A program made the position numbers and the translations under genes. From positions 3,117,588 to 3,181,587 of the forward strand of contig NZ_CP062788.1 in the NCBI RefSeq assembly GCF_025136295.1: a DNA stretch of 64,000 bases, read 5' to 3'. Every line of letters starts with the position of its first letter. The stretch's first letter is position 1. Below are positions 2,659 to 18,729 of this stretch, piece by piece. The notes beneath the pieces are model-generated. The model had not been told where the DNA came from. It searched no databases and saw nothing but the letters and a program-made list of their open reading frames with translations. Source of the stretch: Aestuariispira ectoiniformans. GTDB taxonomy: Bacteria; Pseudomonadota; Alphaproteobacteria; UBA8366; Aestuariispiraceae.

Positions 2659-3510
2659 GGCCGTAAACTCATAAACAGGATTCCCCTTTCGATCTTGATG
2701 TGATTCATGTCTCTTGTTGCCGAACGAGGGAGTTTTCATGAGCCGCCGCCGATACGAACTGACGGATTTCGAATGGTCGATTATCGCACCTTTGCTGCCG
2801 AACAAGCCGCGCGGGGTACCACGTGTCGATGATCGGCGGGTGCTGAACGGCATTCTGTGGCGGTTCCGGGCAGGCACGCCTTGGGCGGAGATACCGGAGC
2901 GTTACGGCCCCCATACAACCTGCTACAATCGCTTCGTCCGCTGGCGCAAGGCCGGGGTATGGGATCGGCTTTTGGAGGCAATCTCAGCGGCTTACGACAG
3001 CGACATCGTCATGATCGACAGTAGTTGCGTCCGCGTCCATCAGCATGGTGCGACCGGTAAAAAGGGGGATCTGACGATGGCTGCATGGGCCGTTCCCGGG
3101 GTGGACTGACGACCAAGATCCATGCCCTTGTCGACGCTGAAGGTCGGCCGGTGAAACTGGCCCTCACGCCGGGGCAAGCTCATGACGGCCGATCAGCGGA
3201 GGGCCTGCTCAAAGACTTGAAGGAGGGGGCCATCCTGCTGGCCGACCGGGCCTATGACAGTGACGCCATCCGCGCCCTTGCCGACGCGCGCAAGGCCTGG
3301 GCCAATATTCCGCCAAAACGGAACCGCAAAAAGACCTTCGCCTTCTCAAGCTGGGTCTATCGCCAGCGCAACCTCGTCGAGCGCTTCTTCAACAAGCTCA
3401 AGCAGTTCCGGGGCATCGCCACGCGATACGACCGTAACCCAGAGAATTTCCTGGCTGCCGTCAAGCTCGCTTCATGCCGCATCTGGATCAGAAGTTATGA
3501 GTCTGCGGCC
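2659..3510 (+). mobile_element. IS5-family (IS427-like) insertion sequence, copy 1 of a tandem dimer
   Basis: An 852-bp element. Terminal inverted repeats are GGCCGTAAACTCATAA on the left and, read inwards, GGCCGCAGACTCATAA on the right (14 of 16 matching). It encodes a two-frame DDE transposase. The bases before the left end are ACTA. After the right end come TA and then the left end of copy 2, so the copies are head-to-tail and separated only by TA. The two copies look identical base for base. Assignment to the IS427-type group of IS5 is from the transposase sequence and the split reading frame. Confidence 0.92.
2738..3109 (+). CDS. IS5-family transposase, OrfA (copy 1)
   Basis: A 123-residue N-terminal half of the transposase (MSRRRYELTDFEWSIIAPLL), with the IS5-type DUF4096-like region and the first catalytic Asp in IVMIDSSCVRVHQHG. 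The ATG at 2738 begins at the usual transposase N terminus; an upstream in-frame ATG at 2714 is less likely. The frame runs into A_AAG_GGG at 3061-3067, a canonical X_XXY_YYZ slippery heptamer. A -1 shift there would join it to OrfB at KKGGSDDGCMGRSRGG, the expected continuous transposase sequence. Without the shift it ends at 3109. Confidence 0.85.
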   Translation: MSRRRYELTDFEWSIIAPLLPNKPRGVPRVDDRRVLNGILWRFRAGTPWAEIPERYGPHTTCYNRFVRWRKAGVWDRLLEAISAAYDSDIVMIDSSCVRVHQHGATGKKGDLTMAAWAVPGVD

Positions 3511-3513: not shown

Positions 3514-4364
3514 GCCGTAAACTCATAAACAGGATTCCCCTTTCGATCTTGATGTGATTCATGTCTCTTGTTGCCGAACGAGGGAGTTTTCATGAGCCGC
3601 CGCCGATACGAACTGACGGATTTCGAATGGTCGATTATCGCACCTTTGCTGCCGAACAAGCCGCGCGGGGTACCACGTGTCGATGATCGGCGGGTGCTGA
3701 ACGGCATTCTGTGGCGGTTCCGGGCAGGCACGCCTTGGGCGGAGATACCGGAGCGTTACGGCCCCCATACAACCTGCTACAATCGCTTCGTCCGCTGGCG
3801 CAAGGCCGGGGTATGGGATCGGCTTTTGGAGGCAATCTCAGCGGCTTACGACAGCGACATCGTCATGATCGACAGTAGTTGCGTCCGCGTCCATCAGCAT
3901 GGTGCGACCGGTAAAAAGGGGGATCTGACGATGGCTGCATGGGCCGTTCCCGGGGTGGACTGACGACCAAGATCCATGCCCTTGTCGACGCTGAAGGTCG
4001 GCCGGTGAAACTGGCCCTCACGCCGGGGCAAGCTCATGACGGCCGATCAGCGGAGGGCCTGCTCAAAGACTTGAAGGAGGGGGCCATCCTGCTGGCCGAC
4101 CGGGCCTATGACAGTGACGCCATCCGCGCCCTTGCCGACGCGCGCAAGGCCTGGGCCAATATTCCGCCAAAACGGAACCGCAAAAAGACCTTCGCCTTCT
4201 CAAGCTGGGTCTATCGCCAGCGCAACCTCGTCGAGCGCTTCTTCAACAAGCTCAAGCAGTTCCGGGGCATCGCCACGCGATACGACCGTAACCCAGAGAA
4301 TTTCCTGGCTGCCGTCAAGCTCGCTTCATGCCGCATCTGGATCAGAAGTTATGAGTCTGCGGCC
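3513..4364 (+). mobile_element. IS5-family (IS427-like) insertion sequence, copy 2 of a tandem dimer
   Basis: A second 852-bp copy of the same element in the same orientation, with a period of 854 bp relative to copy 1. Its left end touches the TA junction at 3511-3512. Its right end is followed by CAATAACAGG rather than TA, so no clean target duplication is visible around the dimer. Both copies appear intact and identical, which points to recent arrival. A collapsed or artificially duplicated assembly cannot be ruled out from sequence alone. Confidence 0.9.
3592..3963 (+). CDS. IS5-family transposase, OrfA (copy 2)
   Basis: Identical in protein sequence to OrfA of copy 1, with the same A_AAG_GGG slippery site (3915-3921) just before the overlap with OrfB. 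The upstream context differs from copy 1. Here the right terminal repeat of the first element lies immediately before it, so any promoter created at the abutted ends would drive this copy. Confidence 0.85.
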   Translation: MSRRRYELTDFEWSIIAPLLPNKPRGVPRVDDRRVLNGILWRFRAGTPWAEIPERYGPHTTCYNRFVRWRKAGVWDRLLEAISAAYDSDIVMIDSSCVRVHQHGATGKKGDLTMAAWAVPGVD

Positions 4365-6760: not shown

Positions 6761-9181
6761 CTATCCCCGCATGCGGTCGGCCTGCGGGTCGAACAACGGT
6801 TCATTGATCAGGGTCGCATCGCACATATCGCCCAGAATTTCGATCTGTACGGCCTGCCCATCTTCCACCAGCTCTATCGGCAGGAAACCGAGGGCAACCG
6901 ACTTTTGCGCGAAATGGGCGTAACCGCCGGAGGTCACGAAACCAACCACCTGGCCGTCATGCCAGATCGGTTCGTCACCCCAGACATCCGCGCCTTTATC
7001 ATCCACAACAAAGGTGCAAAGCCTGCGTGACGGGCCACTTTCCTTCTCGGCAATTGCGGCCTCCTTACCAATGAAGTCCACCGGCTTGTTATAGGCCATA
7101 AAACGGTCCATGCCGGTTTCCATCGGCATGTAGTCCGGTCGGAATTCCCGGTTCCAGGAACCAAAGCCTTTTTCCAGACGCAGGCTCATCATTGCACGCA
7201 TGCCAAACGGACGCAGGCCCAGGTCCCTGCCGGCCTCTTCCAGGATGTAATAGAGCGCGATCTGCTCTTCCGTCGGAACGTAGATTTCATATCCAAGGTC
7301 TCCAGTGTAGGAAACCCGCTGTACCAGCGCATGGCAGGTGCCAATATCCATTTCCTTGATGTCCAGGAATTTGAAGACTTCCGCAGACACGTCCTCAAAG
7401 GCCACACGGGCAAGCAGGTCCCGCGCGCGGGGTCCGGCAATCTGGAAACCGATGCGCCGGGTGGAGATATTTTCCACCGTTACGCTGCCATCTTCCGGCA
7501 GGTGCCTTTCAAACCAGCGCATATGAATGGCCTGCATACCGAAGGATGCCGTTACCATAAACTCGGTTTCCGAAAGGCAGGACACGGTGAAATCACCCAA
7601 TAGTTTGCCTTTCGGACTCAACATCGGATTCAGGGCCAGACGGCCGGGTTTCGGGATACGCCCCGCCATGATCCGGTCCAGCCAGGCCCGTGCGCCCTCG
7701 CCTTTCACCAGATATTTGCCAAAATTGTGGACTTCGTTGATCCCCACCGCCTCACGAACAGCGCGGCATTCCTGGCCTACGGCCTCAAAGGCATTGCTTC
7801 GGCGGAAGCTGGGGGTTTCCTCCAGCGGGTCGCCCTCCAGCGCAAAGTAATTAACTGCCTCCATACCAAAGGCCGCACCGAAGACCGCACGCTGCTCCTT
7901 CCAGATGCCATAGGCGGGCGTTGTCTGATGCGGGCGCGCCACTGGCAGTTCCTCGTTGGGATAGGAGACGGAGAAACGGCGCTGATAGTTTTCCTTCACC
8001 TTGGCGCGGGTGTAACCGGGCGTGATCCAGTCCCCGAAGCGGGAAACATCCATGGCAAAGACATCACGCGAGGGTTCCCCCTCGATCATCCATTCGGCCA
8101 AGGTCAGACCAACCCCACCGCCCTGGCTGAAGCCCGCCATAACAGCGCAGGCCGACCAGTAGTTCTTGAGGCCGGGCACAGGGCCGACCAGCGGGTTACC
8201 GTCGGGAGCGAAGGTGAACGGACCGTTGATAACCGTCTTGATCCCCGCACGCGCCAATACCGGGAAACGGTCAAAAGCAAAGGCCAGAGAATCCCCGATC
8301 CGGTCCAGATTGTTATTCAGCAGTTCATGACCGAAATCCATGGGCGTGCCGCGTTCGGCCCAGGGATCGCATTGCTGCTCATAAAAGCCGATACAGATGC
8401 CTTTGCCTTCCTGACGCAGATAACTTTCGCCCTCCGGGTCCATCACGTGAGGTAACTCCCGACCCAACTCATAAACCTCAGGCGTGGATTCTGTGATCAG
8501 ATACTGGTGCTCCATGGGATGCAGCGGCAGATAGACACCGGCCATCGCCCCCAGTTCACGCGCCCAGAGACCGCCCGCATTGACCACATGTTCCGCAATC
8601 ACCGTTCCCTGTTCGGTAACCACTTCCCAGGAACCGTCGGGCTGCTGGTTCGTCTCCAGGACCGGGTTACGGAGAATGATCTCGGCCCCGGCCATTTTGG
8701 CCGCCTTGGCATAGGCATGGGTTGTACCCGACGGATCAAGGTGACCGTCCAGCGGATCATAAAGCGCGCCCAAAATGCCGTCAGTATTGGTGATCGGGGA
8801 AAGTTTCTTAATCTCGTCCGGGCCGATAATTTCGGTATCGAGGCCCATATAACGATGTTTGGCCCGTTCCGCCTTCAGGAAATCCATGCGTTCCGGCGTG
8901 CCCGCCAGGGTGACACCGCCTACATGGTGCAGCCCGCAAGACAGCCCGGTTATCTCCTCCAACTCCTTATAAAGGCGGATGGTATAACCTTGGAGGGCGG
9001 CCATATTGGTGTCGGCGTTCAATGTGTGGAAGCCGCCCGCCGCATGCCAGGTCGACCCGGATGTCAGTTCCGACCTTTCGATCAGCATGACATCGGTCCA
9101 TCCCAGCTTGGTGAGATGATACAAAACGCTGCATCCAACAACGCCACCGCCGATCACCGCAACCCGGACATGTGATTTCAT
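6761..9181 (-). CDS. Dimethylglycine/sarcosine dehydrogenase-like flavoprotein (FAD + GcvT domains)
   Basis: An 806-residue two-domain enzyme of the DMGDH/SARDH family: N-terminal FAD-dependent DAO domain, C-terminal GcvT-like aminomethyltransferase domain (from about residue 430). The Rossmann motif VIGGGVVGCS is at 9-18. The covalent-flavin histidine motif SGSTWHAAG is present (His46). The family oxidatively removes N-methyl groups from dimethylglycine, sarcosine or related amines and passes the one-carbon unit to tetrahydrofolate. It follows the MttB-family gene by 36 bases and is probably co-transcribed. The exact substrate cannot be read from the sequence; dimethylglycine, sarcosine or another N-methyl compound are all possible. 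Confidence 0.85.
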   Translation of the reverse strand: MKSHVRVAVIGGGVVGCSVLYHLTKLGWTDVMLIERSELTSGSTWHAAGGFHTLNADTNMAALQGYTIRLYKELEEITGLSCGLHHVGGVTLAGTPERMDFLKAERAKHRYMGLDTEIIGPDEIKKLSPITNTDGILGALYDPLDGHLDPSGTTHAYAKAAKMAGAEIILRNPVLETNQQPDGSWEVVTEQGTVIAEHVVNAGGLWARELGAMAGVYLPLHPMEHQYLITESTPEVYELGRELPHVMDPEGESYLRQEGKGICIGFYEQQCDPWAERGTPMDFGHELLNNNLDRIGDSLAFAFDRFPVLARAGIKTVINGPFTFAPDGNPLVGPVPGLKNYWSACAVMAGFSQGGGVGLTLAEWMIEGEPSRDVFAMDVSRFGDWITPGYTRAKVKENYQRRFSVSYPNEELPVARPHQTTPAYGIWKEQRAVFGAAFGMEAVNYFALEGDPLEETPSFRRSNAFEAVGQECRAVREAVGINEVHNFGKYLVKGEGARAWLDRIMAGRIPKPGRLALNPMLSPKGKLLGDFTVSCLSETEFMVTASFGMQAIHMRWFERHLPEDGSVTVENISTRRIGFQIAGPRARDLLARVAFEDVSAEVFKFLDIKEMDIGTCHALVQRVSYTGDLGYEIYVPTEEQIALYYILEEAGRDLGLRPFGMRAMMSLRLEKGFGSWNREFRPDYMPMETGMDRFMAYNKPVDFIGKEAAIAEKESGPSRRLCTFVVDDKGADVWGDEPIWHDGQVVGFVTSGGYAHFAQKSVALGFLPIELVEDGQAVQIEILGDMCDATLINEPLFDPQADRMRG

Positions 9182-9217
9182 TTTCAGTTAACTCCCAGAC
9201 TTAAGCTCTTGATATTG

Positions 9218-10777
9218 TTAAAAATCGGTCGGCACGCCGCCTTCTGCCTTACGACGGGTGACAAAGTCATCCAGCTCTTCCCGGATTCCGGGGTCCAAGG
9301 GCGGCGCCTCATATTGGTCCAGCGCTTTCTTATAGAGTTCGTTGGCACGTTGGGTGGCGTCCCGGCCCCCGTCCAGTTCCCATGTTTCGAAATTGCGCCA
9401 ATCGGAAATCAACGGTTCGTAGAAGGCATCCTTGTAGCGTTCCTGGGTATGGGCCGTGCCAAAGTAATGACCGCCCGGCCCGACATCACGCACCGCATCA
9501 AGTGCCAGCGTCGCGTCATTGACCTCGATCGGCTTCATGTATTCGGCCATCTGCTGCAGCAGATCAATATCGATCATGAATTTCTCAAAGCTGGCGGTCA
9601 GGCCCCCTTCCATCCATCCGGCACCATGTTTCAGGATATTGGCTCCGCCCATCAATGCGCCCCAAAGCGACATCACGCTTTCATAGGCCGCCTGCGCATC
9701 CACCGCATTGGAGGCGTTTGTGTTGGATGACCGGTAAGGCAAATTGTAACGTCGCGCCAACTGCCCGCCGATCTGTGCCGCACGGACATATTCCGGCGTA
9801 CCGAAAGCAGGCGAACCCGTCTTCATATCCACATTGGAGGTAAATCCACCGTAAACCGCGGGCGATCCCGGCCGGACAATCTGTGTGAAGGCAATCCCGG
9901 CCAGCGCCTCGGCATTTTGCTGTGCCAGCGCACCGGCAATTGTCACCGGCGCCATTGCCCCGGAAAGCGTGAAGGGCGTCAGGATCACCACCTGATTTCG
10001 GCTGCTCATCTCAATAATGCCCTGCATCATCGGGTTATCGAGGCGCAACGGTGAACTGGAGTTGATCACCGTGATCAGGCTCGGCTCTTCGCTCAACTGC
10101 TCTTCGCTGATCCCGCGGGCGATCCGGACGATTTCCAACGCATCCAGGTTCCGCTCCTTACCCAGGGAATAGGCATGGAAAACCTTGTCCCCCATCGTCG
10201 CGAAATCATAGAGGCAATCCAGATGGCGGGTTGCGGGCGGCAGGTCTACCGGCTCCACCGAGTAACCGCCATGCAGATGAATGATGTTGAAGAACTGCGC
10301 CAGCTTGATGAATTTTCGGAAATCTTCCTGATTGCCGCGGCGGCGGCCCTTATCCAGATCCGAACAGTTCGGCGCACTGGCGACCGGGCAAAAGGCCATG
10401 ATATTGCCGCCAATCTTCAGATTCCGTTCGGGATTACGCGAATGCAATGTGAATCCACTCGGGGCCTTGGCAACCAGCTCCTCAATCATCCCGCGGTCGA
10501 AACGGACACGTTCACTGCCCGGCTTCACATCGGCACCTGCCGCCCTGTAGCGTTCCACCGCTTCCGGCAGCAGGACTTCAATCCCGACCTCTTCCAGGAT
10601 CGTCATGGAGGCATCGTGTATCTTTTCGATGGCCTCCTCGTCGACAATTTCAATCGGACGGTAGGGGTTCACCAGATTGTTGTTCCACGGAAGCTGGTGG
10701 ATGCTGTGATCGACAGCCTTGGCGGCGTGACCACCCCCGCGCCTGCGACGCCCCCGGCGTTCTGCGTGTTCCGTCAT
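9218..10777 (-). CDS. MttB-superfamily methyltransferase, non-pyrrolysine type
   Basis: A 519-residue member of the trimethylamine methyltransferase (MttB) superfamily. The reading frame is continuous with no internal amber codon, so it is the non-pyrrolysine group. That group includes glycine-betaine and proline-betaine demethylases (MtgB) that move a methyl group to a corrinoid protein. Family blocks visible include NNLVNPYRPIEIVDEEAIEK, ASMTILEEVGIEVL, the GPGGHYFGTAHT motif and C-terminal REELDDFVTRRKAEGG. The N terminus has an Arg/Gly-rich tail (RRGRRRRGGG). SD GGGAGGTGG precedes the ATG. No corrinoid protein or tetrahydrofolate methyltransferase gene is adjacent. It heads the unit with the flavoprotein gene. 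Confidence 0.87.
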   Translation of the reverse strand: MTEHAERRGRRRRGGGHAAKAVDHSIHQLPWNNNLVNPYRPIEIVDEEAIEKIHDASMTILEEVGIEVLLPEAVERYRAAGADVKPGSERVRFDRGMIEELVAKAPSGFTLHSRNPERNLKIGGNIMAFCPVASAPNCSDLDKGRRRGNQEDFRKFIKLAQFFNIIHLHGGYSVEPVDLPPATRHLDCLYDFATMGDKVFHAYSLGKERNLDALEIVRIARGISEEQLSEEPSLITVINSSSPLRLDNPMMQGIIEMSSRNQVVILTPFTLSGAMAPVTIAGALAQQNAEALAGIAFTQIVRPGSPAVYGGFTSNVDMKTGSPAFGTPEYVRAAQIGGQLARRYNLPYRSSNTNASNAVDAQAAYESVMSLWGALMGGANILKHGAGWMEGGLTASFEKFMIDIDLLQQMAEYMKPIEVNDATLALDAVRDVGPGGHYFGTAHTQERYKDAFYEPLISDWRNFETWELDGGRDATQRANELYKKALDQYEAPPLDPGIREELDDFVTRRKAEGGVPTDF

Positions 10778-10877
10778 ATTCCACCTCCCGATAAGTCGAC
10801 GGGCTCTCGCCCGCGTGGTTATTTCTCCCTTTCCCTCTGGCTTACGCCTGTTTCTTGGAGGCAGCCCTCCCCAATTT

Positions 10878-10903
10878 CGACTATGAATGTGTCGTTTTCG
10901 ACA
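10878..10903. promoter_or_regulatory. CGAC direct repeat, 21-bp spacing, upstream of mttB-like gene
   Basis: On the plus strand TTTCGACT (core at 10878) and TTTCGACA (core at 10899) are exactly 21 bp apart, about 100 bases upstream of the methyltransferase start. The same spacing and core occur upstream of the DddP-like gene and between the two regulator genes. AraC-family regulators typically bind direct repeats of this period. Assignment to the AraC-type regulator at 17737 is inference. Confidence 0.45.
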
Positions 10904-10926
10904 TCACGGCGCAAAAACGCAGTCTA

Positions 10927-12156
10927 TCACGTGACCAGCCAATCGGTCTCAAACGGATAGCTTGATAAAACACGGATACCGGTTTCGGTGATCAGAACCT
11001 GTTCTTCCAGTTTGACCCCCTCACCCCCATCGCGATGCCCGATATAGCTTTCCACGCAAAGGGTCATGCCCGGCAGGATCACGCCATCATAACCGCCCTT
11101 TTCATAGTCTTCCGGATAAGCGATTTTCGGATATTCGTCGCAAAGGCCGACACCATGGGCGACAACACTGTAGCGGTTACCGATAAAGGCGTCGGAGAGC
11201 TGAAAGCTCTTTTCCGCAAACTCCCGGAACCCCATGCCGGGTTTGAGGATTTCCATATTGTATTGGATCTGTTCGTAGGCCAGTTGGTATCGCGCCTTCT
11301 GTTCGGCACTCGGCTGCCCGTCGCCACATAGAAATGCCCGGGAGATATCCGCGCAATAACCGAACGGCCCGATCAGGTCGGTGTCATAACTGACCAGCTC
11401 CCCTGCCTGGATCGGCCGGTGGGAGGCCTCCTGGAACCAGGGGTTGGTGCGCGCACCGCTGCTCAGCAACCGTGTCTCGATCCACTCTCCGCCCCGGGCA
11501 ATGTTCTCCTGATGCATCAGGGACCAAAGCTCGATCTCCGTCATGCCGGGGCGCACCGCCTTGTGCATGCGGTCCATGGCCGCCTCACAGGTATCAACCG
11601 CCGCCTGCATGCATTTCAGTTCTTCTTCGGATTTAATTGACCTGGCGATTTCCAAAGGTTCCTGGCCATCCAGAACCGTAAGCCCCTGGATTTGCAGTTC
11701 CGCAACAGCTTCGTGATGCAGGCGGTCGATGCCGATCCGGCGGCTTCCACCACCATGGGCATGTATCAGGTCCGCCGTTTCCCGGGCAAAGGCCTTGCAT
11801 TGTTCCGATAACCGCTCCCCCGCCTCGAAATAGAATAAGGGCTTGCCGGGGCGCACCTCATCCACGGTACCGACGCCATTGGAAATATGCTCGCAGCTAT
11901 GGAAATCAAATAGCACCACCGGGCCATCGGCAGGAACAAAGGCGTATCGTGCGGGGTTATGCAGCGTCCAGACCTGCATGTTGGACGTGTCGGTGGCATA
12001 ACGGATATTCAGTGGGTCAAACAGCAAAACGGCGGCCATATCACGCCGCCGAAGTTCCTGTCGGACCCGTTCCAGCCGGTATTGCCGGACCGCGGTCATG
12101 TCGATACCGTGAGATGGAGGATAGCGGAAGTCTTCCGCAGAAACATAGCTGGTCAT
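10927..12156 (-). CDS. dddP: DddP-like M24-family protein, candidate DMSP lyase
   Basis: A 409-residue protein of the M24 (creatinase/aminopeptidase-fold) family, close to DddP, which cleaves dimethylsulfoniopropionate to dimethyl sulfide and acrylate. DddP-type blocks are present: LLFDPLNIRYATDTSNMQVW, GGEWIETRLLSSGARTNPWF and HGVGLCDEYPKIAYP. The six metal ligands (D258, D260, D270, H334, E369, E384) and the presumed catalytic Asp340 are all present. Each sits exactly 37 residues before the number I recall for Ruegeria lacuscaerulensis DddP (295, 297, 307, 371, 406, 421, 377). It is shorter than that protein at the N terminus. A related peptidase or creatinase activity on another substrate remains possible. 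Neighbouring methyltransferase and flavoprotein genes fit methylated-onium catabolism. Confidence 0.72.
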   Translation of the reverse strand: MTSYVSAEDFRYPPSHGIDMTAVRQYRLERVRQELRRRDMAAVLLFDPLNIRYATDTSNMQVWTLHNPARYAFVPADGPVVLFDFHSCEHISNGVGTVDEVRPGKPLFYFEAGERLSEQCKAFARETADLIHAHGGGSRRIGIDRLHHEAVAELQIQGLTVLDGQEPLEIARSIKSEEELKCMQAAVDTCEAAMDRMHKAVRPGMTEIELWSLMHQENIARGGEWIETRLLSSGARTNPWFQEASHRPIQAGELVSYDTDLIGPFGYCADISRAFLCGDGQPSAEQKARYQLAYEQIQYNMEILKPGMGFREFAEKSFQLSDAFIGNRYSVVAHGVGLCDEYPKIAYPEDYEKGGYDGVILPGMTLCVESYIGHRDGGEGVKLEEQVLITETGIRVLSSYPFETDWLVT

Positions 12157-12245
12157 GACGCCTCCCTGATCCTGAAACGCCGTTGCAATCCGGGCCCCAG
12201 GTCTGCGCCTTTCTATGGCCCCTTATCCCTCGACCCTACGCCTCT

Positions 12246-12297
12246 ATAATACCCTTCCTATGCTTGAAATCGACATGACTTATTCGCGGACCGACAT
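12246..12297 (-). promoter_or_regulatory. Putative activator-dependent promoter of the dddP-like gene
   Basis: On the minus strand a good -10 (TATTAT, 12246-12251) lies about 90 bases upstream of the start. Seventeen bases further up, the -35 position is a poor GTCGAT that overlaps a direct repeat of CGACAT on the plus strand (12271-12276 and 12292-12297, 21 bp apart). A weak -35 overlapped by a half-site is what an AraC-family class II activator site looks like. The 150-base gap to tdh holds nothing else obvious. Confidence 0.5.
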
Positions 12298-12306
12298 TCG
12301 CGTCAC

Positions 12307-13335
12307 TCAGGCGGCCCAGTCCAGGATGACCTTGCCGGACTGGCCGGAATTCATGGCAGCAAAGCCTTTTTCATAGTCATCAATCGGGAAGTGATGGGTC
12401 AGCACCGGCGAAAGGTCCAACCCGCTCTGCAGCATGGCGATCATCTTATACCAGGTCTCATACATTTCCCGGCCATAGATGCCTTTGATATGAAGCCCCT
12501 TGAAGATGACATCATCCCAGTTGATGGCACATTCCTTCGGCGGAATGCCCAACAGCGCCACGTTGCCACCGTTGTTCATCTGGTGCAGCAGGTCCCGCAG
12601 GGCCTGCGGGTTGCCGGACATTTCCATGCCCACGTCAAAGCCTTCCTCCATACCCAGTTCCTGCATGGCTTCCGGGGTGCTGCTTGTCGAGACATTCACC
12701 GCCTTGGTCGCCCCCATCCGGCGCGCCAGGTCCAGACGATATTCATTCACGTCCGTGATCACGATGTGCCGCGCACCGACAAATCGGGCAATGGCCACCG
12801 CCATCACACCAATCGGACCGGCCCCGGTAATCAGCACATCCTCGCCCACCAGATCAAAAGACAGCGCGGTATGGGCCGCATTGCCCAAGGGGTCCAGGAT
12901 CGCCGCCTGATCATCGGTGATGTTATCGGGGATGTGATAGGCATTCGACGCCGGGATCACCAGATATTCCGCAAAGCTGCCGGGGCGGTTCACGCCGACA
13001 CCCTTTGTATTGCGGCATAAATGCTGACGGCCCGCACGGCAATTGCGGCAATAGCCACAGGTGATGTGTCCTTCGCCGGAGACGCGCTCGCCGATCTTGA
13101 AGCCGGAAACAGCCTCGCCGACGGCTTCAATCGTGCCGACGAACTCATGGCCGACCACCATGGGCACGGGAATGGTACGCTGCGCCCAGTCATCCCAGTT
13201 ATAAATATGGAGATCCGTGCCACAGATGGCTGATTTGCGGACCTTGACCAGAACATCATTGGGGCCGATTTCCGGTTTGGGAACATCCTGCTTCCAAAGG
13301 CCGACCGCGTCTTCCGCTTTCACCAAAGCTTTCAT
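12307..13335 (-). CDS. tdh: L-threonine 3-dehydrogenase
   Basis: A 342-residue zinc-dependent medium-chain dehydrogenase that oxidises L-threonine to 2-amino-3-ketobutyrate with NAD+. The catalytic zinc site is visible as Cys38 (ICGTDLHIY) and His63-Glu64 (VVGHEF). The structural zinc cysteines lie in [15 protein letters not shown] and the Rossmann motif is GAGPIGVMA. The family signature [20 protein letters not shown] is complete. I start it at ATG 13335 ([10 protein letters not shown]), with GAGGAG eight bases upstream, not at the in-frame TTG five codons earlier. It follows kbl by 11 bases, forming the standard threonine-to-glycine operon. Confidence 0.96.
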
Positions 13336-13346
13336 CGCCCGTCTCC

Positions 13347-14555
13347 TCAAATAACGTTCATTTCGCGCCCGACCTTTTCAAAGGCGGCCAGAGCGCGATT
13401 GACATGGTCTTCGGTCAGCGCCGCCGACATCTGGGTACGGATGCGCGCCTGCCCCATGGGCACGACCGGATAGGAGAAACCGATCACATAGACACCTTCC
13501 TGATAAAGGCGCGCCGCCATATCCTGCGCCAGTTTGGCATCGCCCAGCATCACCGGGATGATCGGGTGATCACCCGGAACAAGCGTAAAGCCGAGCTTCT
13601 CCATCCCGGCCCGGAAGGCCTTGCCATTGGCAGACAGCTGTTCGCGCCAGGCGGCCCCCTCGGCGGTATCCAGCATATCCAGCACCTTGATCGAGGTCGC
13701 CGCGATCACCGGAGCCAGCGTATTGGAGAAAAGATAGGGCCGTGAGCGTTGACGCAGCCAGGTCACGATTTCCTTCGATGCCGCAGTATAGCCGCCGCTC
13801 GCACCGCCCAGGGCCTTTCCGAGCGTACCGGTGATGATATGGACGCGGTCCTGCACACCCCAATATTCCGGCGTGCCGCGCCCGGTCGGACCGGTAAAGC
13901 CTACGGCGTGGCTGTCATCCACCATGACCAAGGCGTCATATTTCTCCGCCAGATCGCAGATCGCGGGCAAATTGGCGATAATGCCATCCATGGAAAAGAC
14001 ACCATCGGTCGCAATGATCCGGAAGCGTGCGTCCTGCGCCTGTTTCAGGCAATCCTCCAAGGCAGCCATATCGTTATTGGCATAGCGATAACGCTTGGCC
14101 TTACAAAGTCTCACACCGTCAATGATGCTGGCATGGTTGAGCGCATCGGAGATGATTGCATCTTCCTCGCCCAGCAGGGTTTCAAACAGTCCCGCATTGG
14201 CATCAAAGCAGGAGGAATAGAGGATCGTGTCTTCCGTGCCCAGAAACTTGCTGATCCGGGCCTCCAGGTCTTTATGAATATCCTGCGTACCACAGATGAA
14301 ACGCACCGACGACAGACCAAACCCGTATTTCTCCAGCGCTTGCTTGCCCGCCTCGATCAGGGCCGGATGACCGGACAGCCCCAGATAGTTATTGGCGCAA
14401 AGGTTGATCTCGTCGCTGGGCTGACCCGGCTCTTTCGCCTCCACATGGATTTCCGCCCCCTGCCGGGACGTAATAACCCGCTCGTCCTTGAACAGCCCCT
14501 GTTCCTTCAGGGTCTCGGCTTCACGATGCAGATGCGCCAGCAGCCCGGTACTCAT
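13347..14555 (-). CDS. kbl: 2-amino-3-ketobutyrate coenzyme A ligase
   Basis: A 402-residue PLP-dependent alpha-oxoamine synthase. It splits 2-amino-3-ketobutyrate with CoA to glycine and acetyl-CoA, the second step after Tdh. The PLP lysine lies in the [16 protein letters not shown] motif, and substrate/PLP contacts are seen in [23 protein letters not shown] 14555 has GGGAGGA eight bases upstream. A palindrome, GTTCATTATATTGAAC, sits 23 bases before the start and may be the operator of the XRE-cupin regulator encoded at 16836. The operon yields glycine and one-carbon precursors, which links it to the neighbouring methyl-compound genes. Confidence 0.96.
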
Positions 14556-14577
14556 AACAGATCCTCCCAATCAAAAA

Positions 14578-14593
14578 GTTCATTATATTGAAC
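14578..14593. promoter_or_regulatory. Candidate XRE-cupin operator upstream of kbl-tdh
   Basis: A 16-bp near-perfect palindrome, GTTCATTATATTGAAC (half-sites GTTCA and TGAAC, six-base centre), 23 bases upstream of kbl. Thirteen of its 16 bases recur in the same upstream position of the XRE-cupin gene (17445-17460). The position close to the start codon suggests repression. Confidence 0.5.
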
Positions 14594-14747
14594 ATTTGTT
14601 TCTTATCCTGTGTCAATGAAATTTTTGACAAATAAATTATAGAAGTCCGTCCTTGCTTGTGACGTCACATTCTGGTGACAACAGACAGGCCAGCCGATAA
14701 ACTGCAGACACAATTCCAAACGACGATTTCCCGTGAAAAGGACGACA

Positions 14748-15062
14748 ATGCCGGAAACACTGAATCTGTTTCTCATCGACCTCACCTATGTAAAGCCGGT
14801 TGAGGAGATTGATCCGTTGCTTGACGCGCATTACGCCTTTCTCGACCGGCAATATGCCGACGGCATTTTCCTGGCATCGGGACCGAAGGTCCCGCGGACG
14901 GGCGGTGCCATCATCGCCCGTGGCACGGATCGCGCGGCCCTGGAGGAAATTCTGACGCAAGACCCCTTCTTCCAGGCCAAGGTCGCAGAGTACACGGTTA
15001 CAGAATTCATTCCAAAACGACATGCCGTCTCTCTGCAGGAAGCGCTGACAGCAACCGATTGA
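14748..15062 (+). CDS. YciI family protein
   Basis: A 104-residue YciI-like protein (MPETLNLFLIDLTYVKPVEE). It has the conserved HYAFLDRQYADG, LASGPKVPRTGG and DPFFQAKVAEYTVTEFIPKR blocks of the family. The fold is ferredoxin-like; a His-Asp pair is usually conserved and the function is mostly unknown (some members are dechlorinating or hydrolytic). ATG 14748 with AAGGA upstream is preferred to the in-frame GTG five codons earlier. It is divergent from kbl and convergent with the solute-binding gene at 15097. Confidence 0.8.
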   Translation: MPETLNLFLIDLTYVKPVEEIDPLLDAHYAFLDRQYADGIFLASGPKVPRTGGAIIARGTDRAALEEILTQDPFFQAKVAEYTVTEFIPKRHAVSLQEALTATD

Positions 15063-15096
15063 TCAACACACTCTCCTGCAGGTAATCCCGGCAAAA

Positions 15097-15867
15097 TCAA
15101 TATGCCACAATCAGCCGGTCCAGGGCTCGAAGCCGGATTCTGTCCAGTTCTCCGCTTGCTGTCATTTCCTGCAGCACCGCATCCAACTTGGGCACCAGAT
15201 CCTTATTCCTGAGGGTCAGATAATGATAAAGCGGCACCGTATGCAACGGCTGCCCTACTCTATGGATACCGGCATTGGGGAAATCGACCGCGGCCGAGAC
15301 CAGCCCCGGCGCTTCGGCCACAACCACCACATCCACATAATCTCGTATAAGATATCGGAATAACTCGGGGATCGTTTTTCCAAATTGCCGCTTCATGCCC
15401 TCCGTCGCCTCTTTGGCGTAGCGGACCCCATAGCGCACGCCGACCCGGTATGATTTCAGGTCATCCCAGGACCGGATATCATCGCTTATGTCCAATGTCG
15501 TAAAGGCAACAGCAGTAAAATATGTAATCGGCGTGGAAACCGGCGTCAGGTTTGGATATTTTTTCTCTGTCCCGGCGATCCGGGCAATGTCACCGTCGGT
15601 CCGTTCCCTGTTGGCCTCCGTCAAGGCGCGTTTCCCCGGAACCCAACGGAATGTGACAGAGACACCGATACGACCATAGGCAACGACCAGAACATCCGCA
15701 GCGGTCTTGTGGATCAGATCATTCTCAATCCCGGAAAGGACCAATGATCTGCCACTTTCTGCAATGGCCGAAACACTTCCGCCCACCAGCAAGGCCAGCA
15801 TCCATGCGACAACCATAAGCACCCGGTATCTTGACCATATCATGAGCAGCAACTCGATAATCGTCAC
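15097..15867 (-). CDS. Periplasmic solute-binding protein, family 3-like (paralogue A)
   Basis: A 256-residue protein with an N-terminal hydrophobic export segment (VLMVVAWMLALLVGGSVSA) followed by a periplasmic binding fold of the amino-acid/polar-solute type. Recognisable pieces are RWVPGKRALTEANRERTDGD, SWDDLKSYRVGVRYGVRYA and the C-terminal LDAVLQEMTASGELDRIRLR. No permease or ATPase genes adjoin, so it may be an orphan receptor or feed a transporter elsewhere. It is clearly homologous to the next gene, so the pair arose by tandem duplication. The start is uncertain: GTG 15867 has an AGGGA site only a few bases away, and ATG 15843 is an alternative. Confidence 0.72.
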   Translation of the reverse strand: MTIIELLLMIWSRYRVLMVVAWMLALLVGGSVSAIAESGRSLVLSGIENDLIHKTAADVLVVAYGRIGVSVTFRWVPGKRALTEANRERTDGDIARIAGTEKKYPNLTPVSTPITYFTAVAFTTLDISDDIRSWDDLKSYRVGVRYGVRYAKEATEGMKRQFGKTIPELFRYLIRDYVDVVVVAEAPGLVSAAVDFPNAGIHRVGQPLHTVPLYHYLTLRNKDLVPKLDAVLQEMTASGELDRIRLRALDRLIVAY

Positions 15868-15950
15868 CTTCCCTGAGGATCAGCATAGCATAAACCACAC
15901 CGCCTCCTTTAACGGAGTTTCATGGAGGGCAGTCTTGCAAGTCACCTGTT

Positions 15951-16685
15951 TCAATAAGACAACGCGATCTCGTTCAGGGCCCGCTGTTTGATTTTTTCAA
16001 TCTCACCACTGGCCGTCATCTCCTGCAGGGCGGCATCCAGCCTGGCGACGAGCTTTCTGTTGCGACGGTTCACAAAGTGATAAAGGGGCTGATTGGCGAG
16101 CAATCCACCTACCGGATGAATCCCCGCCTTGGGAAAATCCCGCGTGATTGTCAGATAGGCGACATTGTCAGTCAGGACGACAACATCGACATAATTGTTG
16201 ATCAGAAGATGCATTAACTGCTGCGGCGAGTTGGCCTCTTTTCGCTGCATGTTTTCCGTCGCGATATCCGAATAGCGAATACCCCGGATAATACCGATAC
16301 GGTATGGCTTCAAATCGGACCAGTCGTTGATTTTCGCATCAACATTCGTGCTATAGGCATGCGCCTTGAAGACCATAACCGGTGTTGGAACCGGTACGAG
16401 ATTTGGCCAGACCTTTTCCGTTCCCTCAATGCGCCCCACATCCCCGTCGGAACGGCCTGAATTGGCTTCATTCAAGGCTCTTTTCGCCGGCACCCAGCGA
16501 ATTTCCATGGGAATTCCCGCCCGTTCGTAGGCCGCAGCCACCACGGCGCCGACAATTTCATGGGTGACATTATCCATAATACCGGACAGCACGACTTTCT
16601 TCTGGGAGTCCTGCGCCTTCGCACTGCCGTGCATCGCACCGGCAAAAATCAAAAACCCAACCAGAAGGTATCGACAGGCCAGCAT
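15951..16685 (-). CDS. Periplasmic solute-binding protein, family 3-like (paralogue B)
   Basis: A 244-residue paralogue of the preceding protein, with a clear signal peptide (YLLVGFLIFAGAMHGSAKA). The same pattern follows: VLSGIMDNVTHEIV, RWVPAKRALNEANSGRSDGD, the DWSDLKPYRIGIIRGIRYSD segment, and C-terminal LDAALQEMTASGEIEKIKQR. It is probably translated from ATG 16685 with GGGGAAGAG upstream; the GTG at 16703 is less likely. Like its partner it has no transport genes beside it. Ligand unknown. Confidence 0.75.
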   Translation of the reverse strand: MLACRYLLVGFLIFAGAMHGSAKAQDSQKKVVLSGIMDNVTHEIVGAVVAAAYERAGIPMEIRWVPAKRALNEANSGRSDGDVGRIEGTEKVWPNLVPVPTPVMVFKAHAYSTNVDAKINDWSDLKPYRIGIIRGIRYSDIATENMQRKEANSPQQLMHLLINNYVDVVVLTDNVAYLTITRDFPKAGIHPVGGLLANQPLYHFVNRRNRKLVARLDAALQEMTASGEIEKIKQRALNEIALSY

Positions 16686-16835
16686 TCGATCGCTCTTCCC
16701 CACCTCGGAAACAGGACAGAAAACCCAGAAGTAGAAATCTTAACACAGTTTCTACCGATATACAGCCCTGCGATCGAAAACCGTAGCCAACGTCAGGAAC
16801 ATCATAGAAATTTCATCGGGGATTGCGCCCCGGGA

Positions 16836-17429
16836 CTACGTCTGCCTTTGGCCGCCATACTGGCCGGGCAGTGCCACAACCAGCAGCGCCCGCGCAGATG
16901 CGCCGGAAGCATTGGCAATGCGATGCGGCTGACCAACGTCATAGCGAAGGGTTTCACCCGCCTCCACCGTAAAGACGCGGTCTGCGACATGGACCTGCAA
17001 TGTGCCGTCCAGAACGGTCAGATGCTCCCAGGTGCCTTCGGCATGGGCATCGGAATCCAGCTCCCCCCCCGGTTCGTAGAGCAACTCATACCATTCCATA
17101 TTCAATGCGCTGCGCGCCGGGTTGAGAATGCGCAGCAGACATTTTCCATCCTGGCTTCGGATTTCCGGTGTGGAATAGCCCTTCATATGCTCAACCACGT
17201 CGGAATTGACCGCCTCGGAGGCTCCGCTGATCAGGTCGCTGATTTCCACCCCCAAAGCCGACGACAGGTTCCAGAGCACGGCAAAGGTGGGGTTCACCTT
17301 GCCCCGTTCAATCTGGGACAGCATGGATTTTGAAACGCCGCTGCGTTCCGCCAGTTGCTCCAGCGTCAGACGCCGCCCCTTGCGGGACTGTTTCAGGGCT
17401 TCTCCCAATTCAGGAACCGGTGGCTGCAT
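16836..17429 (-). CDS. XRE-family regulator with C-terminal cupin domain
   Basis: A 197-residue transcription regulator. Residues about 8-64 form an XRE helix-turn-helix (LEQLAERSGVSKSMLSQIER, then GKVNPTFAVLWNLSSALGV). Residues about 110-190 form a small cupin (EGTWEHLTVLDGTLQVHV, then VEAGETLRYDVGQPHRIANA) that normally senses a small ligand. This architecture often controls amino-acid or amine metabolism. Its own promoter carries a 16-bp imperfect palindrome 16-31 bases upstream that is shared with kbl-tdh, which suggests it controls threonine/glycine metabolism and itself. Divergent from the AraC-type regulator. Confidence 0.85.
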   Translation of the reverse strand: MQPPVPELGEALKQSRKGRRLTLEQLAERSGVSKSMLSQIERGKVNPTFAVLWNLSSALGVEISDLISGASEAVNSDVVEHMKGYSTPEIRSQDGKCLLRILNPARSALNMEWYELLYEPGGELDSDAHAEGTWEHLTVLDGTLQVHVADRVFTVEAGETLRYDVGQPHRIANASGASARALLVVALPGQYGGQRQT

Positions 17430-17444
17430 ATAAATACCCTATAA

Positions 17445-17460
17445 ATTCGATATATTGAAC
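17445..17460. promoter_or_regulatory. Candidate XRE-cupin autoregulatory operator
   Basis: ATTCGATATATTGAAC, matching 13 of 16 bases of the palindrome upstream of kbl (GTTCATTATATTGAAC), placed 16 bases before the start of the XRE-cupin gene. One half-site (TTGAAC) is exact and the other is degenerate. Confidence 0.45.
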
Positions 17461-17501
17461 TTTCGGAAAGCAGGATAGCCAATCCCTCGAAGCATCGCAA
17501 T

Positions 17502-17548
17502 CGACTGGAATTTTGATATTTGCGACAAGGGAAAAAGAATACGCGACA
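17502..17548. promoter_or_regulatory. Three CGAC repeats at 21-bp period between the two regulator genes
   Basis: CGACT at 17502, CGACA at 17523 and CGACA at 17544 are each exactly 21 bp apart on the plus strand. The last is also part of CGACA-CATC-TGTCG. Together with the operator at 17445 these occupy the 307-base divergent gap 17430-17736. The rest of the gap shows nothing I can name. The repeats could serve the XRE-cupin gene, the AraC-type gene or both. Confidence 0.45.
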
Positions 17549-17736
17549 CATCTGTCGAAATCGCGATTATTTGCTTCGTTTTCGGTGAATTTCTTTTGAC
17601 GAAAATCGGGATTTGTAGGCCAATATTCCAAGGCAACCGCCCCGTGGGTACATTTGGTTGCCGGGATTTGCCCCATTCAAAATACCGAACAACAGAAACA
17701 GAAATGGTTTGGGTGCAGGTTTAGGGAGCTGGGTCA

Positions 17737-18729
17737 GTGCGACAGGACGTTATTTCAAAATCGGATATGTCCGTATCAAATTCTGCGGAAACCAGAAGGA
17801 TCGGCTATCTCCTCATTCCCCGTTTTTCCATGCTGTCTTTGGCATCCGTTGTGGAAACCCTGCGCGAGGTCAACCGTCAGGCGGAAAGGACGCTTTATGA
17901 GCTGTCCCTGATCTCGGAGGACGGTGAGGCCGTTCCCGCCAGTTGCGGCATGCCGATCCAGGTTGAAAAGGGCATTCACGACAAGGCGGATTATGACATG
18001 GTCATGGTCCTGGCCGGGTTTAATCCCCATCACGCCTCCAACGCGGTCTATTCCTGGCTGCGCCGTCTCAGCCGCCACGGCACGGCCATTGCGGGGATCA
18101 GCACCGGCGCACATGTTCTTGCCACCGCCGGGTTGCTCGACGGCTACCGCGCCACCATCCACTGGGAAAACGCCACCTCCGCCCTGGAGGAATTTCCCGA
18201 CGTGGAATGGACCGGCAACCTGATCGAGATCGACCGGGACCGCTATACCTGTTCCGGCGGGGCGGCGACACTGGACCTGATGCTCAACATCATCAACCGG
18301 CATTACGACGCCAATCTAACCTCCAAGGTCGCCAACCAGTTCCAGCATGAGCGCGTGCGCTCCCCGCTCGACGAACAGAAGACATTGGAACAACAGCGCC
18401 TGCGCGTGAAAAGCGAGAAGCTGCACCACGTCATCAACATCATGGAACATAATATCGAGGAGACGATCCCGCTGGATGAACTCGCCTCCTCCGTCGGCCT
18501 GTCCCGGCGTCAGCTGGAACGCCTGTTCCGGCTTTACCTGGGCTGTTCACCCGGCAAATATTATCGCGATGTGCGGCTGAACAAGGCGCGTTCCCTGCTG
18601 ATCCAGACGAACAAGCCGATCATCGAGGTAGCTATGGCGACAGGCTTTGTCTCCATCTCCCATTTCACCCAGATTTATCGCGGAAAATTCGGTCTCACCC
18701 CAAGAGAAGCGCGGTATAGCGCCCTATAA
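17737..18729 (+). CDS. GATase1-like AraC-family regulator (GbdR/CdhR type)
   Basis: A 330-residue regulator. Residues about 18-190 form a DJ-1/PfpI-like (GATase1) sensor domain (RIGYLLIPRFSMLSLASVVE, then GISTGAHVLATAGLLDGYRA). Residues about 225-325 form an AraC-type double helix-turn-helix ending in HFTQIYRGKFGLTPREARYS. This architecture is that of GbdR, CdhR and ArgR of Pseudomonas, which respond to betaine/dimethylglycine, carnitine and arginine. With a dimethylglycine-dehydrogenase homologue and an MttB homologue nearby, a role in methylated-amine or onium catabolism is likely but inferred. The GTG at 17737 has GGGAGC seven bases upstream. Confidence 0.83.
   Translation: MRQDVISKSDMSVSNSAETRRIGYLLIPRFSMLSLASVVETLREVNRQAERTLYELSLISEDGEAVPASCGMPIQVEKGIHDKADYDMVMVLAGFNPHHASNAVYSWLRRLSRHGTAIAGISTGAHVLATAGLLDGYRATIHWENATSALEEFPDVEWTGNLIEIDRDRYTCSGGAATLDLMLNIINRHYDANLTSKVANQFQHERVRSPLDEQKTLEQQRLRVKSEKLHHVINIMEHNIEETIPLDELASSVGLSRRQLERLFRLYLGCSPGKYYRDVRLNKARSLLIQTNKPIIEVAMATGFVSISHFTQIYRGKFGLTPREARYSAL

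Follow-up and report, generated by a model that had tools for sequence, protein, structure and literature searches.

Tandem TGTCGC repeats in an Aestuariispira gene cluster: probable operators of a known GATase1-AraC type within a wider methylated-amine regulon

Introduction

The transcription factor CdhR of Pseudomonas aeruginosa uses the half-site GGTCGC with a 15-bp spacer, and its sites closely resemble the GbdR, SouR and ArgR sites, whose proteins are described as related transcription factors (PMC5806209, partial text). Here we describe direct repeats of this kind in 64,000 nucleotides of DNA from the alphaproteobacterium Aestuariispira ectoiniformans (contig NZ_CP062788.1, positions 3,117,588 to 3,181,587; this whole stretch, numbered from its first letter, is referred to as the window), where they lie upstream of an mttB-like gene, a dddP-like gene and the gene of an XRE-cupin regulator, the latter being divergent from a gene for a GATase1-AraC regulator.

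The strongest of the window sites resembles the CdhR operator at caiX-cdhR in combining a GATase1-AraC protein with direct repeats of period 21 and in lying between the regulator and a divergent target, but CdhR serves a carnitine operon, whereas the window has a divergent XRE-cupin regulator and a third half-site (PMC5806209, partial text). With GbdR and SouR of P. aeruginosa (same source) the locus shares the half-site type and a setting of methylated glycine catabolism; its genome also encodes a GbdR-like paralog that faces a soxB-like gene. The window regulator itself falls outside the GbdR-like clade and below the NCBIfam cut-off for GbdR. ArgR of P. aeruginosa has the consensus TGTCGC-N8-AA-N5, which agrees with our sites in half-site and period; where it has AA in the spacer, many of the sites that we find at corrinoid-protein genes have TA or likewise AA. 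ArgR, however, controls an arginine regulon, and no arginine genes were identified here. By half-site and spacing, the window repeats are of the published CdhR/GbdR/SouR/ArgR operator kind, so the kind itself is already known.

On the side of the enzymes, glycine betaine demethylation by MtgB/MtgC employs an MttB-superfamily enzyme together with a corrinoid protein (PMC12478193, partial text). The same two protein types are encoded in the genome studied here. The term 'AraC' was not found in the available part of PMC12478193. In the literature searched, nothing was found on AraC-type control of B12-dependent betaine demethylation, which is weak evidence of absence.

Tandem repeats upstream of three genes

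The features at the centre of this analysis are the following.

17501..17548, minus strand: putative three-half-site tandem operator, toward the XRE-cupin gene, TGTCGC-N15-TGTCGC-N15-AGTCGA
12270..12296, minus strand: candidate tandem operator upstream of the dddP-like gene, TGTCGG-N15-TGTCGA, 10/12
10877..10903, minus strand: weak candidate tandem upstream of the mttB-like gene, TGTCGA-N15-AGTCGA, 9/12
17737..18729, plus strand: GATase1-AraC regulator, GbdR homolog, with DJ-1/PfpI (PF01965) and AraC helix-turn-helix domains (PF12833, HTH_18; PF00165)
16836..17429, minus strand: XRE-cupin regulator with HTH_3 and Cupin_2 domains, its gene divergent from that of the GATase1-AraC regulator

The repeats were first seen as seven CGAC elements, all on one strand: CGACT at 10878 and CGACA at 10899, which are 21 bp apart and 101-126 bp upstream of the mttB-like start (10777); CGACAT at 12271 and 12292, again 21 bp apart and 115-140 bp upstream of the dddP-like start (12156); and CGACT at 17502 followed in 21-bp steps by CGACA at 17523 and 17544, 73-119 bp upstream of the XRE-cupin start (17429). 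On the strand of the genes they read GTCG-N17-GTCG with a period of 21. Direct reading of the sequence bore out the positions, single strand and 21-bp period given in the first-pass annotation of this DNA, and its estimate of roughly 70-140 bases upstream of three minus-strand genes corresponds to a measured 73-140 bp. Extending the element to TGTCGC-N15-TGTCGC, with half-sites scored out of 12 positions, separates the sites: the one at 17522 matches at 12/12 and is the sole non-coding match of at least 11/12 at period 21 in the window, and the overlapping one at 17501 reaches 10/12. Direct-repeat half-sites of the TGTCGC/GGTCGC type are thus found at 17501-17548, and in part at the dddP (10/12) and mttB (9/12) sites, together with the 15-bp spacer and period of 21.

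How far could such repeats arise by chance? The window contains CGAC-N17-CGAC 11 times where 2.76 matches were expected; only four are non-coding by a crude mask of open reading frames, and 21 bp, being seven codons, favour matches in coding DNA. For the 7,270 bases of non-coding DNA the expectation was 0.207 matches, and four did not arise in any of 2000 dinucleotide shuffles. Two of these four matches are the overlapping pair at 17502, and the two that the mttB and dddP sites yield on their own are equalled or exceeded in 1.65% of shuffles. The site at 17501-17548 is therefore clearly non-random, the mttB and dddP sites only modestly so. Across the genome (4.36 Mb) the short CGAC-N17-CGAC motif is not special: it occurs at 556 places (285+271) and is rarer than its reversed control (700; 338+362). 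An identical 25-base stretch containing this motif occurs twice in the window, at 2995-3019 and 3849-3873, and its complement is also present at genome positions 34760 and 2080926; this looks like a repeated gene.

An independent matrix, built from 26 distinct sites of other genomes and used to rank all window positions on both strands, placed the 17522 site second, the dddP site eighth and the 17501 site 33rd. When its training sites were left out in turn, most scored 15-30 and three scored 0.1, 9.6 and 10.6, so the matrix contains some poor sites. Promoters were read by eye. That of the XRE-cupin gene can be read as TTGCGA-N17-TATCCT, with the third half-site just upstream. At the dddP-like gene, the proximal half-site occupies the -35 position, 18 bp before TATTAT as -10, just as the first-pass annotation had it, and the spacer contains GAATAA, as do those of several corrinoid-gene sites. 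Behind the mttB site, no clear -10 could be made out. Taken together, the dddP site appears moderately supported and the mttB site weakly.

Recurrence of the tandem in relatives and in the genome

In 24 upstream regions of 700 bp, taken from GATase1-AraC homologs outside this genome, tandems of at least 11/12 are present in 13 regions at period 21 as against 0-3 at each of 21 other periods (12-33), and perfect 12/12 tandems in five as against none at other periods. Each of the 13 tandems points in the direction opposite to the araC gene, which is also true of the window site. The gene that they face is a soxB-like flavoprotein gene, a name that we assume for it, in the four relatives inspected (L033, L034, L042, L050) and in the genome of the window itself, where the product has a DAO domain.

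The tandem also recurs upstream of genes for a corrinoid protein, the partner type of MttB enzymes. Among 18 close homolog loci in 17 genomes, out of 28 matches outside this genome, a forward tandem of at least 10/12 precedes the corrinoid gene at 17, compared with 0-6 for other periods, and one of at least 11/12 at ten, compared with 0-4, the best lying about 114-238 bp before the aligned start. In one of these genomes, G057, an mttB homolog (44%) is situated just upstream of the corrinoid gene, and a tandem before this mttB scores 18.2, compared with 9.5 for the best score within the gene. By sequence, this tandem and the corrinoid sites tie the motif to MttB-type demethylation.

In the genome of the window, TGTCGC-N15-TGTCG with at most one mismatch is enriched (268 versus 137 for the control). 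Full tandems of at least 11/12 are non-coding in 9 of 63 cases, at eight places, compared with 2 of 57 for the reversed motif, one of which overlaps a motif match; the crude mask counted the window's own site as coding, which in this respect makes the comparison a conservative one. Among the non-coding tandems are the soxB-like site, an array at ABC transporter genes and a corrinoid-protein site, whereas those at 276608, 709016, 1236358 and 3411228 have no evident connection. The array consists of three half-sites (TGACGC, TGTCGC, TGTCGT) about 240 bp before transporter genes with ABC_tran and SBP_bac_8 domains (L256:4542-5918; G000:C1:2054541). The corrinoid gene (L257:3123-3955; G000:C1:1891122-1891954), with a tandem of 11/12 upstream, encodes a B12-binding protein and is followed by a DUF1638 gene. 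Three further tandems were inspected and not accepted as members of the regulon: one at the start of what we take from its translation to be a malic-enzyme-like gene (139298), one inside an open frame (823204) and one beside a presumably folate-type gene (1855444).

Two candidate regulators

The product of the gene at 17737 carries both the DJ-1/PfpI and the AraC helix-turn-helix domains of a GATase1-AraC protein according to Pfam, and its best NCBIfam match is GbdR (NF052371, 346 bits, below the curated cut-off of 480); the earlier description of it as a GATase1-AraC regulator of the betaine/dimethylglycine type was thus right in kind. In a tree of 45 rows it groups with homologs from genomes G003 (56%) and G374 (50%), with support of 94/63 for all three and 98/90 for the window regulator with G003. 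A warning of long branches meeting (L032 with the window row) makes this grouping less sure than its support values. A clade of 20 rows, to which we give the name 'GbdR-like', contains a paralog from the same genome (G000:C1:1100361-1101299). This paralog faces the soxB-like gene with a perfect tandem between the two. Within the same bacterial family its subclade comprises 14 tree rows, its own included, of which 12 have a consensus site upstream. The helix region SRRQLERLFR, which we take to be the first recognition helix, is identical in the window regulator and the GbdR-like clade.

A probable operator type and its alternatives

Given how well the sequences match, how specific the spacing is, how the motif recurs in relatives and what synteny shows, we consider it likely that the repeats are tandem TGTCGC operators for GATase1-AraC activators of the GbdR/SouR/CdhR type and belong to a wider methylated-amine/one-carbon regulon. 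Binding, activation, ligand and the part played by the paralog we infer as follows. The half-sites, with a period of 21 bp corresponding to two helical turns, would be bound from one side of the double helix by a regulator dimer, the promoter-proximal half-site adjoining or overlapping the -35, and activation would occur when a methylated amine or one of its breakdown products is bound, as the family suggests. The 17501-17548 site would then serve the divergent XRE-cupin/GATase1-AraC pair, with autoregulation possible. As a further target, the dddP site is probable and the mttB site possible. The regulon would also take in the soxB-like operon, the corrinoid protein and perhaps the ABC transporter. 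It may be read by the 17737 product, by the GbdR-like paralog or by both, the paralog being at least as likely as the 17737 product. The first-pass annotation had taken the repeats for the footprint of an AraC-family protein, specifically a GATase1-AraC one, and in kind this stands, as half-site, 21-bp period and family match published sites and the tandem recurs in relatives.

A number of results weigh against this reading. Within the non-coding DNA of the window, periods 18, 27 and 28 each have one match of at least 11/12, and matches of 9-10/12 are common at many other periods, so that the window alone does not settle the question; in addition, the mttB site ranks only 104th with the independent matrix. 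Genome-wide, full tandems of at least 11/12 show no excess (63 versus 58 for the reversed control). The 13 tandems at GATase1-AraC homologs are not independent, because 11 of them come from one clade of one family, and the corrinoid tandem of G057 (L374) is probably a chance match, since by its coordinates it lies inside the upstream mttB gene. The regulator/XRE-cupin gaps of the two closest orthologs, in G003 and G374, are without a tandem (best matches 9/12 and 8/12, respectively), and no tandem match was found within 700 bp in these two genomes. In relatives, the regions before mttB and dddP homologs show no N17 peak, and at only 6 of 25 mttB and 4 of 26 dddP loci is the highest matrix score found upstream and not within the gene, mostly by a small margin. 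Moreover, the second helix region differs between the window regulator (SISHFTQIYR) and the GbdR-like clade (SASHFSKCYR). At the orthologous genes examined, i.e. the G003 and G374 gaps and the mttB and dddP homologs, conservation of the spacing was therefore not found, an outcome that the first-pass annotation had itself named as speaking against its proposal. The motif class still recurs at the GbdR-like and corrinoid genes of relatives.

Could the mttB and dddP sites be chance matches, with 17501-17548 alone being functional? We regard this as a serious possibility, though one that we tend to doubt. Their scores of 9/12 and 10/12 are within background, two matches arise in 1.65% of shuffles and no conservation was seen at homologs; on the other hand, the GTCG core is exact in all four half-sites, which share strand and a similar distance to the gene, and the dddP site resembles corrinoid-gene sites in its GAATAA spacer and lies over a -35 position.

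Somewhat more doubtful is the idea that the GbdR-like paralog alone reads the sites and that the 17737 regulator recognizes something else. The consensus sites upstream of the paralog's relatives speak for it, as does the finding that in 16 of the 17 genomes scanned for corrinoid genes, the best GATase1-AraC match falls outside the window regulator's clade. Yet further GATase1-AraC paralogs in those genomes may be the readers, the first recognition-helix region does not distinguish the two regulators, and the strongest window site directly abuts the local one.

A small local regulon of XRE-cupin, dddP and mttB, with the 17737 regulator dedicated to reading the three sites, appears unlikely. 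This regulator is physically linked, all three sites point at genes of the cluster, and G003 and G374 likewise combine the AraC/XRE-cupin pair with mttB in one cluster, but the gaps of just these two best orthologs lack the tandem, the mttB site is weak, and the motif is common to paralog loci and to corrinoid genes, the genomes with the latter having, with one exception, their best match outside its clade. The local regulon proposed in the first-pass annotation is only partly supported, by one strong, one moderate and one weak site, and not as stated: with the motif common to distant loci of the same genome, the sites are probably part of a methylated-amine/one-carbon regulon that is of known type and extends beyond the cluster, and a dedicated role of the 17737 product does not fit the orthologs. 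Finally, that the repeats are a functionless by-product of the abundance of GTCG/CGAC in this genome is very improbable, for although the short motif is not enriched genome-wide and the full tandem is no commoner than its control, the non-coding shuffles and the spacing-specific recurrence in relatives argue otherwise, and for 17501-17548 the sequence evidence is already contrary.

The surrounding genes and a second operator

The genes of the cluster and two further sites are as follows.

6761..9181, minus strand: dimethylglycine/sarcosine oxidase-like fusion of a flavin adenine dinucleotide (FAD) oxidoreductase with GcvT domains (DAO, FAO_M, GCV_T, GCV_T_C)
9218..10777, minus strand: MttB-superfamily methyltransferase, an open frame without internal stop (Pfam MTTB, 695 bits)
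10927..12156, minus strand: DddP-like M24 family protein (NCBIfam DddP NF043017, 449 bits)
12307..13335, minus strand: tdh, L-threonine 3-dehydrogenase (NCBIfam, above cut-off)
13347..14555, minus strand: kbl, glycine C-acetyltransferase (NCBIfam, above cut-off)
14579..14592, no strand assigned: palindrome TTCATTATATTGAA, predicted XRE-cupin operator, at the likely kbl promoter
17446..17459, no strand assigned: palindrome TTCGATATATTGAA, predicted XRE-cupin operator, in the XRE-cupin promoter region

Among PDB chains, the mttB-like product matches 4yyc best (E 1.5e-122), and the glycine betaine methyltransferase 9yce gives E 3.7e-102. The score of the DddP-like protein lies below the curated cut-off of 600; it aligns over most of its length with the M24 chains 4b28 and 4rzy, including conserved Asp, His and Glu motifs with presumably catalytic roles. 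Between the XRE-cupin gene and kbl (15097-16703) there are two tandem, diverged periplasmic-binding-protein-like genes, one with a weak SBP_bac_3 match (below cut-off) and the other with none. kbl-tdh stands beside mttB in the window (6761-17429, with the DddP-like gene between) as well as in genomes G374, G004 and G009, which suggests a joint use of threonine-to-glycine breakdown and betaine demethylation.

In three genera the AraC gene has a divergent XRE-cupin gene next to it, which is followed by mttB and FAD-GcvT in G003 and by kbl, tdh and mttB in G374. The palindrome TTCNNTATANNGAA is present without mismatch twice in the window, where 0.02 matches were expected; one copy is at the XRE-cupin promoter and the other at that of kbl. 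In the genome it occurs at nine places versus one for its control; by eye, the remaining seven have no evidently related genes. Before XRE-cupin, its counterpart is exact in G374 and has one mismatch in G003, and allowing at most one mismatch, the 18-kb region of either genome contains two palindromes, i.e. before XRE-cupin and mttB in G003, and before XRE-cupin and the aligned kbl start in G374. In this cluster the palindrome is, by sequence, better conserved than the GTCG tandem. Ten further XRE-cupin loci of the class were taken from 10 of 14 other matching genomes: the palindrome is near XRE or kbl in four (L258, L259, L263, L267) and not in six, and kbl and tdh are within the fetched region in nine. 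XRE-cupin would add a second layer of control by binding the palindrome at the kbl promoter and at that of its own gene, and would probably repress itself and kbl-tdh or mttB. A literature search produced nothing relevant by title on XRE-cupin control of kbl-tdh.

A tentative extension, which we hold at a little under even odds, is that in this alphaproteobacterial group the GbdR-type regulon has been extended to cobalamin-dependent demethylation, i.e. to the corrinoid gene, the mttB-corrinoid pair of G057, the soxB-like operon and the window island (XRE-cupin, kbl-tdh, DddP-like, MttB-like and FAD-GcvT), with XRE-cupin and its TTCNNTATANNGAA operator coupling threonine-to-glycine breakdown to methylated-amine demethylation. 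For B12-dependent betaine demethylation in these bacteria, the enzymes of which have been described recently (PMC12478193, partial text), the motif provides a candidate operator and regulon open to testing. In the window, two regulators with distinct predicted operators appear to meet on one cluster. A further copy of TTCNNTATANNGAA with one mismatch lies at 17676-17689 in the regulator/XRE-cupin gap, about 50 bp before the start of the regulator gene.

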